Made by a program: the position numbers and the translations under genes. A stretch of DNA of 64,000 nt from Dehalococcoidales bacterium. Its GTDB lineage: Bacteria > Chloroflexota > Dehalococcoidia > Lucifugimonadales > Lucifugimonadaceae. The stretch lies in the NCBI GenBank assembly GCA_009937255.1, contig JAACCT010000037.1:1-64000 (forward strand). Reading direction: 5' to 3'. Numbering within the stretch: the first letter of the stretch is position 1; each line of letters opens with the position of its first letter. Below, piece by piece: positions 1 to 5,901 of the stretch. Under the pieces are notes generated by a model. That model was not told where the DNA came from. It was given only the letters and a program-made list of their open reading frames with translations, and made no database searches.

Positions 1-886
1 TAAAATTTATACTTAATTTCTTTTTGTTATAAAATGGTGTATCTAAATGTAAACAAAAATAATATTTATAATTTTTTGAAATTATTTTTCCATTGTTTCT
101 CCAATTATTTTTATGATAAGAAATTTTTAGTTTATTTCTACAAATATTGCAAAATAAGATACCTAACCAAATATTTTTATTATAGGTTTTAGATAGAGGT
201 TTAGAATTAAGAATCTTTGCAACATTATCATAGATTTCAGTAGAAATAAGTCTTTGGTGAGAATTTGGAATTACTACATTGTATCTTCTATAAACTCCTA
301 TATAAAAATCATTTCTTATTAAATGATTAACACTTTGACTCGTAAAATTTTTCTTACTTAAGGTATTTATTCTTTTAACAGTTTCTATTAATGAATTAGT
401 TTCTAAAAATATAGAAAAAAGAGATTTCACTATATTAGATTCATCCAAGTTTATTTCAAAAAAACCAGAAGAGGTTTTTTTATAACCAAAAGGAACTTTA
501 CCTAAAACTTGACCCCTCGACGCTTTATTATTTATAGATTCCTTAATTTTAGAAATTCTTTCTGGATTTTTTCCAAAATAAGGTAAATATCTAATAGCAT
601 TTTGAAATGGATCTGGATAATCATATGAAGAACAATATATCAATACTTGAGATTTTTCAAAAAAAATCATTTTTTTACAAAATCCCAATAAATCTTTATC
701 TAAGAGTTTAGGTTCTAATATAATAATTTTTGAAATAAATTCTTTTTTTATAATTTCTTTAATATATGAAAAATTATTATTATCTGTAAAAATATCTATT
801 TCAAAATTTTCAAAACTACAAAAATCTAAAATTTTATTCTTTTCTTCAATATTAGAAATATCAGAAATCAAAGCTAAAGATTTCAA
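1..886 (-). CDS. Serine-recombinase-like protein, partial at window edge
   Basis: My own translation; absent from the ORF track because it runs off the left edge. A TTG start at 886 sits 6 nt after a GGAGT ribosome site and just after the upstream zinc-ribbon frame ends. The 295 visible codons follow the large serine recombinase layout: a short resolvase-like N-terminal region, then a Recombinase domain (ERISKIKES, then KVPFGYKK, then NHLIRNDFYIGVYRR), then the start of a zinc beta-ribbon (LFCNICRNKL). The N-terminal region is poor: where the family has Y-x-R-V-S it reads LISDIS, and where it has the ldRlxR arginines it reads EPKLLDKDL, so the catalytic arginines appear missing. It may be a DNA-binding relic or a repurposed recombinase rather than an active enzyme. 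Family assignment is from motif order; loss of activity is inference. Confidence 0.7.
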   Translation of the reverse strand, partial: MKSLALISDISNIEEKNKILDFCSFENFEIDIFTDNNNFSYIKEIIKKEFISKIIILEPKLLDKDLLGFCKKMIFFEKSQVLIYCSSYDYPDPFQNAIRYLPYFGKNPERISKIKESINNKASRGQVLGKVPFGYKKTSSGFFEINLDESNIVKSLFSIFLETNSLIETVKRINTLSKKNFTSQSVNHLIRNDFYIGVYRRYNVVIPNSHQRLISTEIYDNVAKILNSKPLSKTYNKNIWLGILFCNICRNKLKISYHKNNWRNNGKIISKNYKYYFCLHLDTPFYNKKKLSINF

Positions 887-890
887 AATT

Positions 891-1592
891 TTACTCCGCT
901 ATTAGTGATTTCCCACAATTACAAACTATAGGAGTAGTTGTTGATTTAATTTTTTCAATAAATGCATTCGGAAGTTCCATTTTGCAACAAGAACTAATAT
1001 TATTTTCTAATTTTGCAATTCCTATATTTCCACTTTTAGATAAAAAATTTTAATATAAATTTAAAACATTTTTGTTTAAGTCTTTAGACAAAGAATTCTT
1101 AATCTCAATTAAGCTATTTTTTTTTGCATCAAATGATTTAATTTGTTCTTTTAATTTTATTTCTAAATTATTCCAATTATCTTCAGATGTCATTATTTTA
1201 ATTTCCAAACTTTCTTTAAGTTCAGTTAATTTATTAATATTTTCTATAACTTTTAAACTTTTAGGATTTAAATCTTCCAATATATTAGTTTTAGATTGTA
1301 GCTCAAGTTCAATAGCTTCTACTTCTTTATTATTTCTTATTTTTCCTGAATATAATGTAGTATTTAATCCGTTAATAATTTCACTACATTCATCAATTGA
1401 CTGATTAATTTGAATTTGTAATTTATTTTGTTGATTTAATTTATCATCAATTATATTAACTTTTTGTTTCATATCAGGAATCCCTTTTTGAGATAATAAT
1501 TCTTTTTTGATAATCAATATCTTATTATCGATTAAAATTATTTCAGAATCGTGTTTTTGTATTTCAAAATAATACTGGTTTTCTTCTGACAT
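891..1592 (-). pseudogene. CT398-type coiled-coil/zinc-ribbon protein, interrupted by an in-frame stop
   Basis: The tracked ORF (1050..1592, 180 aa) is a long charged coiled coil starting MSEENQYYF, with an AAGAGGAAT ribosome site upstream. Its TAA (1050-1052) is followed in the same frame by about 50 more codons, to a TAA at 891-893, that encode the family's C-terminal zinc ribbon (GNIGIAKLE, then CCKMELP, then VCNCGKSL). Coiled coil plus C-terminal ribbon is the layout of the CT398/zf-RING_7 family, where a residue of the Y-x-x-[IL] segment before the conserved G-x-A falls exactly at the stop. The cysteine spacing is also off: SSCC and CNC replace the usual two CxxC pairs. Either a decayed gene, a sequencing error, or a stop that is read through. 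The coiled coil alone could still be made. The recombinase-like gene follows immediately and is probably cotranscribed. Confidence 0.65.
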
Positions 1593-1708
1593 AGATTCCT
1601 CTTAGTTGTTTTTCTTTAATATATAATACGCTATATAAGATATAAATAAGATTCTAATTATAATAATAAAATTTTACTTTTTAAAAATTAGAAAAATATA
1701 AATGGAGA

Positions 1709-3148
1709 TTGAAAATTTCAAATTTAAATTTACAAAAAACTAAAATTGTATGTACGATTGGTCCTTCATCTGAATCAATTGAAATCATTAAGGATTTATT
1801 AAACGCTGGTATGAACGTAGCAAGAATAAACCTATCTCACGGTGAAAATAAAGACCATAAAAAAATAATTTCTAATTTAAGAGAAGCTTCTAATTCTTTA
1901 AATAAATCTTTACCTATACTTGCTGATTTGCCTGGTCCTAAATATAGAGTAGGCATAATTCCAAATAATTTTTTGAATACTAATAAAAACGATTTATTAA
2001 GCTTCGAATGTGATGAAAGTACAGACACAACCGATATAAAGATTTGGCCATCTAGACTACACAATGATGTTCAAATAGGAGCAATATTATTAGTTGATGA
2101 TGGTGCTGTAGAACTAGAAGTTACAGAAATTCAAAAAACTAAAATCATAACAAAAGTAAATTTGCCAGGAAAAATAAGTAGCAATAAAGCTGTGGTAGCA
2201 AGAGGATTTCCTTCTATGCTAGATTATTTTACAGAAGAAACACAAAATGCTTTAGACTTTGTAATAGCAAATGATATAGACTATATTGGACTTTCTTATG
2301 TTAGAAATTCTGAAGATATAAAGAGAGTAAAATCTAAAATTGGAAGTAAAAATCTAAAAATTATTTCTAAAATTGAGCTACAAACTGCTTTAGATAATTT
2401 AGAAGATATAATTGACTGCTCAGATTCTATTATGGTTGCAAGAGGAGATTTGGGCGTACATCTTCCTATTTCTCAGGTTCCTGCAGCTCAAAAATTTATA
2501 ATTAATTCATCTAATAAAAAAGGTAAAGAAGTTATAACTGCGACTCAAATGCTTGAATCATTGACAGATAACCCTCAACCTACAAGTGCAGAATCAACAG
2601 ATGTACATAATGCGGTACTAGATGGATCTGATGCAATAATGCTTTCAGGTGAAACTTCAATAGGAAATTATCCAGTTAGAGCCGTTGAATTTATGAGAGA
2701 AATATCAAAAATCGCTGAAAATGATATCAATCATAATAACTTAAGAAATAAAAGATTAAAACATGTTGATTCATCTAGTTCGAATATTATAGATGAATTA
2801 ATTGCTCATGGAGCAGCTAACATTGCCGAACAACTTGATGCAAAATTAATAATTGCATTTACAGAATCTGGGTCTACTGCTGCTAGACTTGCAGCATATA
2901 GACCTTCACAAATAGTAATCGCATTATCTCCAGATAAAAAAGCTAGTATTAATTTAGGTTTAAGGTGGGGTGTAAATGCTATTAAGACTGATGGTTTTGA
3001 TCAAATTGAAAAAATGTTTACTTTTGCAGAAAATTTAGTAAAGAAAGAAAACCTTGCTTCTGAAGGCGATACAATAGTAGTGGTAGCAGGTTTACCAATA
3101 GGTTATAAAGGAAATACTAATCTTATACGAGTAATAAATATAAATTAG
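1709..3148 (+). CDS. pyk: Pyruvate kinase
   Basis: Cytosolic last step of glycolysis: phosphoenolpyruvate plus ADP to pyruvate plus ATP. At 479 aa it has the usual bacterial length. Seen: the N-terminal KTKIVCTIGPSSES and MNVARINLSHG strands, a B-domain insert after the barrel start, the metal/substrate loop ARGDLGVHLP, the signature TQMLESLTDNPQPT followed by AESTDVHNAVLDG and SGETSIGNYP, and a C-terminal alpha/beta domain ending in VVVAGLPIGYKG. The track start is TTG, only about 1 nt after GGAGA, so the exact start is uncertain; an ATG at 1702 is in another frame that stops quickly. It stands alone on the plus strand and its 3' end overlaps the convergent FAH gene by 4 nt. Confidence 0.96.
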   Translation: MKISNLNLQKTKIVCTIGPSSESIEIIKDLLNAGMNVARINLSHGENKDHKKIISNLREASNSLNKSLPILADLPGPKYRVGIIPNNFLNTNKNDLLSFECDESTDTTDIKIWPSRLHNDVQIGAILLVDDGAVELEVTEIQKTKIITKVNLPGKISSNKAVVARGFPSMLDYFTEETQNALDFVIANDIDYIGLSYVRNSEDIKRVKSKIGSKNLKIISKIELQTALDNLEDIIDCSDSIMVARGDLGVHLPISQVPAAQKFIINSSNKKGKEVITATQMLESLTDNPQPTSAESTDVHNAVLDGSDAIMLSGETSIGNYPVRAVEFMREISKIAENDINHNNLRNKRLKHVDSSSSNIIDELIAHGAANIAEQLDAKLIIAFTESGSTAARLAAYRPSQIVIALSPDKKASINLGLRWGVNAIKTDGFDQIEKMFTFAENLVKKENLASEGDTIVVVAGLPIGYKGNTNLIRVININ

Positions 3149-3999
3149 ACTTCTATAACAGTATTAGTTAATGTCCCTATATTTTCAATTGATATAGAAA
3201 TTTCATCACCTGGCTGTAGCGTAAAATCTTCTGGAGGTATAGTTCCTGTTCCTGTCATTACGGTTGAACCGTCAGGAATATCATTGCTTCTATGAAGCCA
3301 TTCATTAAGTTCCTCACATTTTCTTTTCATTAGATTTGTATTCCCTGAACCTGAAAATACTTCTTTAGAATTTCTTTTAATTATCATTTCAACTTTTAAG
3401 TTATTATAATCAATTAATTCAATTGGAACCCAACAAGGTCCAATTGATGCAGAATTATTAAAAATTTTCGCCTGAGGTATATATAGAGGATTTTCACCTT
3501 CAATAGATCTGCTTGACATATCATTACCTATTGTAAAACCAACTATTTTTCCATGAAATACAATAAAAGTTAGTTCAGGTTCTGGTACATCCCAAGTTGA
3601 ATCTTTTCGTATACCTACTTGATCATTATTACCCTTAATTCTCGCTAATGTACTCTTAAAAAAAGCCTCTGGTCTATCTGCTACATATACCTTTCCATAT
3701 ACATCTGGGGTATCAGATTCTGCTTGTCTTTCTTTCATAGAATCTTCATAAGTCACACCAAATGCCCAAGTTTCCAATGAATCAATTGGTATTCTTGGAT
3801 TAGAAAGCATTGGTTTAGGAAAAGTTCCATCTGTTGTATCCATGGTTTTTTTTAGATATTCAGAAACTGTTAGATCATTACTTAAAGCAACCTTAATTAA
3901 ATCTATAGATGTTTTTATAGATGGTCGTAATTTAGTAATATCTTTTATCTTTTTATCATCTTCTACAACTACTCTTTTTCCTATTTGATAAATTTTCAT
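3145..3999 (-). CDS. Fumarylacetoacetate hydrolase (FAH) family enzyme, possibly a 2-keto-3-deoxy-acid dehydratase
   Basis: An FAH-fold enzyme of 284 aa. Seen: the metal-ligand motif EPEL (in WDVPEPELTF), GFTIGNDMSSRSIEGENP, and the C-terminal MTGTGTIPP loop typical of the superfamily. The GNDMSSRSIEGENPLY stretch resembles 2-keto-3-deoxy-D-arabinonate dehydratases more than true fumarylacetoacetases, so sugar-acid breakdown is plausible, but substrate cannot be fixed from sequence. The track start is GTG at 4005, directly abutting AGAGAG; the ATG at 3999 has that purine-rich site about 6 nt upstream and is preferred. It is the last gene of the hspR-grpE-dnaK transcript (8-9 nt after dnaK), which is functionally unexpected, and it ends convergent with pyk. 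Confidence 0.85.
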   Translation of the reverse strand: MKIYQIGKRVVVEDDKKIKDITKLRPSIKTSIDLIKVALSNDLTVSEYLKKTMDTTDGTFPKPMLSNPRIPIDSLETWAFGVTYEDSMKERQAESDTPDVYGKVYVADRPEAFFKSTLARIKGNNDQVGIRKDSTWDVPEPELTFIVFHGKIVGFTIGNDMSSRSIEGENPLYIPQAKIFNNSASIGPCWVPIELIDYNNLKVEMIIKRNSKEVFSGSGNTNLMKRKCEELNEWLHRSNDIPDGSTVMTGTGTIPPEDFTLQPGDEISISIENIGTLTNTVIEV

Positions 4000-4008
4000 A
4001 ATCACTCT

Positions 4009-5901
4009 CTAAACTTCTTTATATTCACCATCAACAGTATCATCTTCATCAGATTTGTCATCATCATTTGTGGGTTCAGTAGGATTATTTTCCGGTTGAG
4101 GTAAATTTTGGCCAAAGGCTTGTAAGGCTAAATTTAATTTTTCTATGGCCTCATTAATTTCTTCAGATTCAGATTCTTCTACAGATAAAATATTTTTAAC
4201 ATTATCGATTTCGCTCTGGAGATCAGAAGTTATATTTTCTGGTACTTTTTCAGAATTTTCTTTAATAAGTTTTTCAGATTGATAAACAACAGCTTCTGCG
4301 GAGTTTTTTGCTTCAATTTTTGATCTGGATTTTTTATCTTCTTCAGCAAATTTTTCTGCATCTTTAATAATTTTATCTATTTCATCATCAGACATTCCAG
4401 ATCTTCCAGTTATAGTTATCTGTTGCTCTTTGTTTGTTGCTCTATCTTTAGCCTTAACTGTAACTATTCCATCAGCATCAATATCAAAAGTAACATCAAT
4501 TTGAGGTACGCCTCTAGGAGCTGGTTGTATACCATCTAATGAAAATCTTCCAATAGATACATTATCAGAAACCATATCTCTTTCACCTTGAACTACATGT
4601 ATTTCAACACTTGGTTGATTATCACCTGCTGTTGTAAATGTTTCAGTTTTAGAAGTTGGAATTGTAGTATTTCTTTCAATTAATGGTGTCTTTACTCCTC
4701 CTAATGTCTCTATACCTAAGGTTAGTGGAGTAACATCCAATAATAATACATCCTTGACATCACCTTGTAGAACACCAGCTTGAATAGCAGCCCCAAGTGC
4801 AACTACTTCATCAGGGTTGATAGATTTATTAGGTTCTTTCTTAAATAATTCTTTAACTTTTTTTCCAACAAGTGGCATTCTTGTCATGCCACCTACTAAT
4901 ACAACTTCATTTATCTCTTCGGCTTTTATTCCAGCATCTTTAATTGCATTCAAAGTTGGTTTTACTGTTTTTTCTACCAAAGGACCAGTAAGTTCTTCAA
5001 GTTTAGCGCGAGATAATGACATTTGAAGATGCTTAGGTCCGTTAGAATCTGCAGAAATAAAAGGGAGATTTATCTCTGTTTGATTCAAAGAAGATAATTC
5101 AATTTTAGATCTTTCAGCCTCAACTCTTATACGTTGTAATGCGGCAGCATCACTTTTTAAATCTATTCCATTTTCGTTTTGAAAATCATTACAAATGTAA
5201 TCAACAATTACATTATCAAAATCATCTCCTCCTAATTGAGTATCACCATTTGTAGATTTTACTTCAAAAACACCTTCTCCCAGTTGCAATATAGTAACAT
5301 CAAATGTTCCTCCACCAAGATCATAGACAGCTATAACTCTATCTCCTTCTTTATCAAGACCATATGCTAGAGAAGCAGCAGTTGGTTCATTAATTATTCT
5401 GAGAACTTCTAAACCAGCAATTTGTCCTGCTACTTTAGTTGCTTCTCTCTGAGAGTCATTGAAATAAGCAGGAACTGTAATTACAGCTTGATCAACTTTC
5501 TCTCCTAGCTTATTTTCTGCATCCTCTTTTAATTTTCTTAAAACCATAGCTGATATCTCAGCTGGAGCATGATCTTTATCACCTAACTTAATACCCAAAT
5601 CTCCATTAGTTCTCTTATTAAGCTTATAGGAGACCTTTGAAGATTCTTTTTTTATATCTGAATCTGCAATTCTGCGTCCCATAAATCTTTTTGCAGAGTA
5701 CACAGTATTTTCAGGATTAGTTATAGACTGTCTTTTTGCAGTCTCCCCAACAAATCTTTCATTAGACTTAACATTGAGTGCTACAACTGAAGGAGTTGTT
5801 CTTTTTCCTTCATTATTTTCAATTACAGAAGGCTCTCCTGATTCCATAACTGCCATAGCAGAATTAGTTGTTCCTAAATCTATACCTATTACTTTTGCCA
5901 T
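4009..5901 (-). CDS. dnaK: Chaperone protein DnaK (Hsp70)
   Basis: ATP-driven chaperone that binds exposed hydrophobic segments in the cytosol with GrpE and a J-protein (none is encoded in this window). 630 aa, normal length. Seen: the N-terminal phosphate loop [10 protein letters not shown], the actin-fold strand [23 protein letters not shown], the interdomain linker region [14 protein letters not shown], the substrate-binding domain ([14 protein letters not shown]-like [10 protein letters not shown]), and a disordered acidic tail ending [18 protein letters not shown]. The start ATG follows a purine-rich AAGGAAA stretch. Third gene of the hspR-grpE-dnaK transcript, so likely under HspR repression that DnaK itself may assist, as known for HspR systems. 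Confidence 0.98.

Follow-up and report, generated by a model that had tools for sequence, protein, structure and literature searches.

The first gene of the stretch of Dehalococcoidales DNA analyzed here (64,000 nucleotides, referred to as the window) resembles a large serine recombinase (LSR) that has lost the residues needed for cutting DNA, which raises the question of what such a protein does in a bacterial chromosome. An earlier note, made from the letters of the window, had suggested that a recombinase fold was kept here as a DNA-binding protein of the chromosome. As that note had claimed, the ORF starts from a TTG behind a ribosome site: the start lies at base 886 of the minus strand, a GGAG sits a few bases 5' of it, and the 295-aa frame reaches window base 2 and is open at the edge. 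Window base 1 is the true first base of contig C88, so that the contig end cuts the gene in this MAG of 1.47 Mb and 108 contigs. Extending past the left edge located the remainder of the gene at C86:5-232, about 77 aa including the terminal stop codon. Residues 1 to 293 of a same-genus relative match C88 and residues 296 to 371 match C86, which runs on from the end of the recombinase into the RNase P RNA. The joined gene of about 373 aa is similar in length to those of same-genus relatives (372 to 383 aa). Contig breaks inside the recombinase gene were seen in three genomes of the genus (G000:C88/C86, G004:C5 at L043, and G001:C6 at L055), and in G001 one full copy is accompanied by a C-terminal piece of 182 aa located at the end of a contig. 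Such breaks suggest that the locus either varies between strains or was assembled wrongly. The features of the region are collected in Table 1.

Table 1. Features at the recombinase end of the window
Feature	Coordinates	Strand	Remarks
LSR homologue without catalytic residues	2..886	-	Residues 1-295 of about 373; TTG start; continues at C86:5-232 (G000, L076)
N-terminal resolvase-fold domain, eroded	542..886	-	Approximately residues 1-115; fold kept; R8/S10/R68/R71 absent; boundary approximate
Recombinase DNA-binding domain and zinc-ribbon region	50..490	-	PF07508 at residues 148-227; C246/C249 pair, C278; net charge about +21; boundaries approximate
CT398-like coiled-coil/C4 zinc-ribbon protein gene	891..1592	-	233 codons in relatives; in-frame TAA at 1050-1052
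Intergenic region between zinc-ribbon gene and pyruvate kinase (divergent)	1593..1708	.	TATTATATATTA element conserved in genus
Pyruvate kinase by sequence	1709..3148	+	Conserved neighbour cluster 2, divergently transcribed

Both the domain content and the predicted fold identify the protein as an LSR by descent. In Pfam, the window protein matched the Recombinase domain alone (PF07508, E 2.4e-11). The Resolvase domain (PF00239) gave no score on the window protein or on its relative L107, and scored 2e-9 in relative L151. PF07508 and the recombinase zinc ribbon PF13408 were both detected in L107; L037 gave just a weak PF13408 match and the window protein none. A PDB sequence search matched the window protein to the DNA-binding half of the A118 integrase, and its PHROGs match was annotated as integrase. 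AlphaFold (AF2) models of L107 (pLDDT 88.6) and of the window protein (pLDDT 84.9) both show a resolvase-like beta-alpha fold, helix E, and the recombinase and zinc-ribbon domains, to which L107 adds a helical arm. The best Foldseek matches for these models were the LSR-DNA complexes of SPbeta, phiC31, Bxb1, and A118. The TM-scores were modest, which hinging between the domains probably explains. Structure prediction, which the earlier note had put forward as a check, thus returned an LSR fold. The note's view that the recombinase and zinc-ribbon domains look intact needs a correction, in that the zinc ribbon of the window protein retains three of its four Cys ligands. The window's genus is among the most diverged in the family, and its C terminus is shortened.

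The N-terminal domain, by contrast with the Recombinase domain, is eroded in the way the note had described: PF00239 is unscored, R68 and R71 align with L61 and K64, and the R-V-S motif is absent. This is a property of the family. When 117 members and 14 ordinary LSRs were tallied on one alignment, Ser10, Arg68, and Arg71 occurred together in none of the members versus all 14 of the ordinary LSRs. Position 10 is Ser in 7 of the 117 members and position 71 is Arg in 4, and Arg68 is found in none (it is His in 81). Deeper members of the class, readable at these two arginine positions in 16 of 20 cases, gave Arg at R68 in none and at R71 in 2. Where ordinary LSRs have Y-x-R-V-S, the family N terminus reads M-R-A-x-G-Y-F, and L-D-R-L-x-R is replaced by P-D-x-x-H-L-x-x-D-L-E. 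The alignment outcome that the note had named as a refutation did not occur: no conserved Ser or Arg was placed in the active site of any of the 117 relatives, and the set that marks an active LSR (catalytic Ser10 with Arg8, Arg68, and Arg71) is not found in the family. Loss of catalysis is therefore well supported.

The gene is widespread within one class of bacteria. A first search gave a family match in 52 of 60 relatives, and in a sample of the class 127 of 245 genomes had a match, exactly one each (threshold 1e-60). Across 301 genomes of the phylum, scores separated members (at least 315 bits) from other LSRs (no more than 155), and every member came from the window's class. Named records carrying the gene are SAR202 cluster, Dehalococcoidia, and Chloroflexi MAGs. 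Outside the genus the ORF is mostly 405 to 475 aa long; some of the longer ORFs come from a start placed at an earlier codon. No family relative was encoded on the viral contigs searched, and the phage proteins that matched were ordinary integrases, 22 to 28% identical in the best matches. On these grounds a phage origin of the window copy was rejected.

In a quick tree with SH-aLRT support only, the family forms one clade against the active LSRs (SH-aLRT 99). The window's genus and family form clades within the recombinase tree, which tracks genome groups. Between the recombinase and the zinc-ribbon protein encoded next to it, distances correlate at r = 0.81 (n = 103), against 0.24 in the best of 999 permutations, as expected under mainly vertical inheritance. 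A member on a MAG titled Thermoflexus hugenholtzii (L174) groups with Dehalococcoidia members, and this bin is likely misnamed or contaminated. Another member, L050 (G053), is fast-evolving, with an end branch of 2.3 and neither the zinc-ribbon gene nor rnpB recognised beside it; it may be relaxing.

Pairwise dN/dS over whole proteins was about 0.05 to 0.37 (member pairs sharing >60% residues) and was low in the N-terminal domain and in the DNA-binding part alike. Because its dN/dS is low, the once catalytic N-terminal domain must still do something. It has conserved features of its own under constraint (Cys33 and PDPxQNA) and has turned acidic, with a median net charge of -6 versus +0.5 in active LSRs. 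The recombinase/zinc-ribbon half carries a net charge of +21 versus +17.5 in active LSRs and is the most conserved and most basic part of the protein; zinc ligands C1 to C3 are present in 116 to 117 of 117 members. Present in single copy, inherited mainly vertically, and held under purifying selection, the family has the characters of a domesticated chromosomal protein, and domestication of the recombinase is well supported. Purifying selection is equally expected for a role without DNA binding.

The recombinase gene nearly always follows the same partner. Its start lies 4 nt from the stop codon (891-893) of a zinc-ribbon gene whose product has CT398_CC and C4 zinc-ribbon domains. The earlier note was thus right that the recombinase stands just downstream of such a gene, but the gene is interrupted here: its first ORF covers 180 of 233 aa owing to the TAA at 1050-1052 (minus strand), which replaces a Glu codon of same-genus relatives and after which the frame is open to the normal end. 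This TAA may be a true nonsense mutation or an assembly error. Upstream, the TATTATATATTA element is a probable promoter. CT398-type zinc-ribbon proteins bind sigma54 and RNA polymerase (PMC5947703). The gene pair that the note had suggested looking for in relatives was recovered in every named locus with upstream sequence, with the zinc-ribbon gene immediately 5' of the recombinase in 77 of 77, mostly within about 10 nt; of the 38 same-order loci, 32 had a recognisable zinc-ribbon gene. The pairing is not universal, since no such gene was present in the stretch examined for several of the deepest members of the class (L261-L264, L269-L272, and L274). The note's remark that no insertion sequence or att site lies nearby agrees with our findings, in that none was seen in the examined part of C88, a contig that ends inside the gene, and no flanking element, the other finding that the note had named as a refutation, was found. 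A fixed chromosomal operon in 77 of 77 named loci, with no viral contig, is not what a mobile-element gene would present.

On the other side of the recombinase, a co-directional rnpB lies within 2.5 kb downstream in 56 of 74 named loci and in 32 of 36 loci from the same order. One part of the class has an RNase HI gene between the two; it overlaps or directly follows the recombinase in L151, L152, L156, L157, L159, L170, L171, L173, L177, L186, and others, mostly before rnpB. A TATAAT box is conserved a few nucleotides past the recombinase stop, just before rnpB, in the genus (L036-L042 and L076), and it is a probable rnpB promoter overlapping the gene end. With a probable promoter of its own here, rnpB may be linked to the recombinase without sharing its function. 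In many genomes without the recombinase the zinc-ribbon gene stays near rnpB, at a distance of about 50 nt or separated from it by an RNase H or other gene. Most of the same-order genomes with no match in the single-protein search were checked, and these have the zinc-ribbon and rnpB genes with other genes or none between, except for two in which neither was found. The recombinase is thus dispensable for the locus in some lineages. Retention of the zinc-ribbon-(rnhA)-rnpB block in these genomes implies one of two histories: the recombinase entered a block that was already there, or it dropped out of such a block repeatedly. In L244 (G040, no recombinase), unrelated ORFs, one HNH-like by eye, lie between the zinc-ribbon gene and rnpB at 2100-4750 and represent a possible insertion at the same junction.

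In LSRs, the N-terminal domain dimerises and cuts. Binding of the half-sites falls to helix E, the recombinase domain, and the zinc ribbon, and protein contacts to the coiled-coil arm. If the cutting residues alone were removed, a site-specific DNA-binding dimer would remain. The explanation that we consider likely is accordingly a domesticated LSR, now non-catalytic and probably a dimeric DNA-binding protein with a regulatory or architectural role, co-expressed with the zinc-ribbon protein. This is also the reading of the earlier note that the data support best, DNA binding itself being deduced from homology and charge. Dimerisation, partnership with the zinc-ribbon protein, and regulation are predictions of the same model. 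On this explanation, an integrase of the SPbeta/A118/phiC31 type became fixed in a Dehalococcoidia ancestor beside the zinc-ribbon gene, upstream of (rnhA)-rnpB, lost its catalytic Ser and Arg, and has descended mainly vertically, with losses in some lineages. Its basic recombinase/zinc-ribbon half most likely binds a specific double-stranded site. Helix E and the resolvase fold that has been kept would probably mediate dimer formation, and longer members could also use the coiled-coil arm. The role would be that of a transcriptional regulator or a DNA-architecture protein, probably acting with the CT398-like protein from the same transcript. Charge, zinc ligands, and the modelled fold are consistent with a sequence-specific regulator. 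No DNA target was found: the regions upstream of the zinc-ribbon gene in close relatives contain promoter-like conserved blocks, in which no common palindrome was recognised by eye. We hold it somewhat less firmly, though still favor it, that across the Dehalococcoidia an integrase has become a non-catalytic DNA-binding regulator in an operon with the CT398-like protein and the RNase H/RNase P RNA genes, that is, a recombinase-derived transcription or chromosome factor.

Several other readings of the locus were weighed against this one. The conserved linkage of the zinc-ribbon gene, the recombinase, (rnhA), and rnpB could point to the RNA side, with a protein that binds RNA or RNA-DNA hybrids and cooperates with what the adjacent genes encode (RNase P RNA, RNase HI, and the zinc-ribbon protein), and HP0958, a relative of the zinc-ribbon protein, has been reported to bind an mRNA (PMC5947703). 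What has been retained, however, is the half with which LSRs bind DNA, a TATAAT box of its own precedes rnpB in the genus, and one clade (L051; G041) has moved rnpB away and kept the zinc-ribbon-recombinase pair; we regard this role as unlikely. Even less probable is a protein-interaction scaffold, in which the fold persists because it assembles with the zinc-ribbon protein and no nucleic acid is bound. The acidic N-terminal domain, with its own constrained features, would suit such a scaffold, but it is the basic, DNA-binding half that is the most conserved. Scarcely different in probability, and if anything slightly lower, is the idea of a guard, in which the dead integrase still sits on an ancestral att site close to where the zinc-ribbon gene meets rnpB and keeps active relatives from integrating. 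Integrases usually adjoin their att site, and the gene does sit between two genes that are adjacent in relatives lacking it, sometimes about 50 nt apart; yet no active element was seen integrated at the junction in the loci examined, and a guarding role is not obviously tenable across the whole class.

Two further readings deny that catalysis was lost or that the gene is maintained. Retention of the fold and the zinc ribbon might suggest a recombinase still active through other residues, but Arg68 occurs in no member, the Ser position is variable, the gene is single copy and vertical, and no att site or element accompanies it. This reading was rejected on the catalytic-residue tally and is very improbable. 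The least probable of all is a decaying integrase pseudogene or a local assembly error. It draws on the source MAG, where the gene is cut by a contig end and its neighbour carries a stop, and it is refuted by stop-free intact ORFs in more than 100 genomes and by dN/dS well below 1.

Comparison with known systems places the domesticated, non-catalytic LSR closest to the phage large serine integrases, namely SPbeta YokA/SprA (PDB 9dxh and 9y66), phiC31 (9rah), A118/Listeria (4kis and 6dnw), and Bxb1 (9iu2), with which it has in common a resolvase-fold N terminus, helix E, the Recombinase domain, the zinc ribbon, and a coiled-coil arm. Unlike them, every member lacks the catalytic Ser/Arg set, and the family is present as one chromosomal copy in a fixed operon, without an element and with mainly vertical descent; members are also about 450 aa long (370 to 380 aa in the window's genus). 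The best NCBIfam match was to the XisF/SpoIVCA-type chromosomal LSRs (NF041201; 41.6 bits for the window protein and 68.5 for L107, with a cut-off of 375 that is far above both). These are likewise used by the host chromosome but are active excision enzymes. Recombinase exaptation is already well known: mobile-element recombinases such as Hin have been recruited by hosts and kept by selection, as in this family, and the serine cases in a review of the subject act by DNA inversion or excision (PMC8987985). Judged by its residues, the present family would be incapable of either. In the open-licence literature we found no description of such a catalytically dead, single-copy LSR family and nothing on SAR202 or rnpB with serine recombinases, a silence that is weak evidence of novelty.

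Host-recruited recombinases usually keep their chemistry. Here the chemistry has been lost, with the rest of the molecule under selection and the gene in a fixed operon. The bearers are an environmentally abundant and mostly uncultured class of bacteria, about half of whose sampled genomes carry the gene, and annotation pipelines will enter it as a recombinase and include it among the mobile-element genes. The family offers a natural experiment on what an LSR does without catalysis, as well as a ready set of inert LSR DNA-binding modules. For the Dehalococcoidia themselves, a candidate DNA-binding protein is now tied to an unexplained conserved zinc-ribbon gene and to the RNase P RNA locus.
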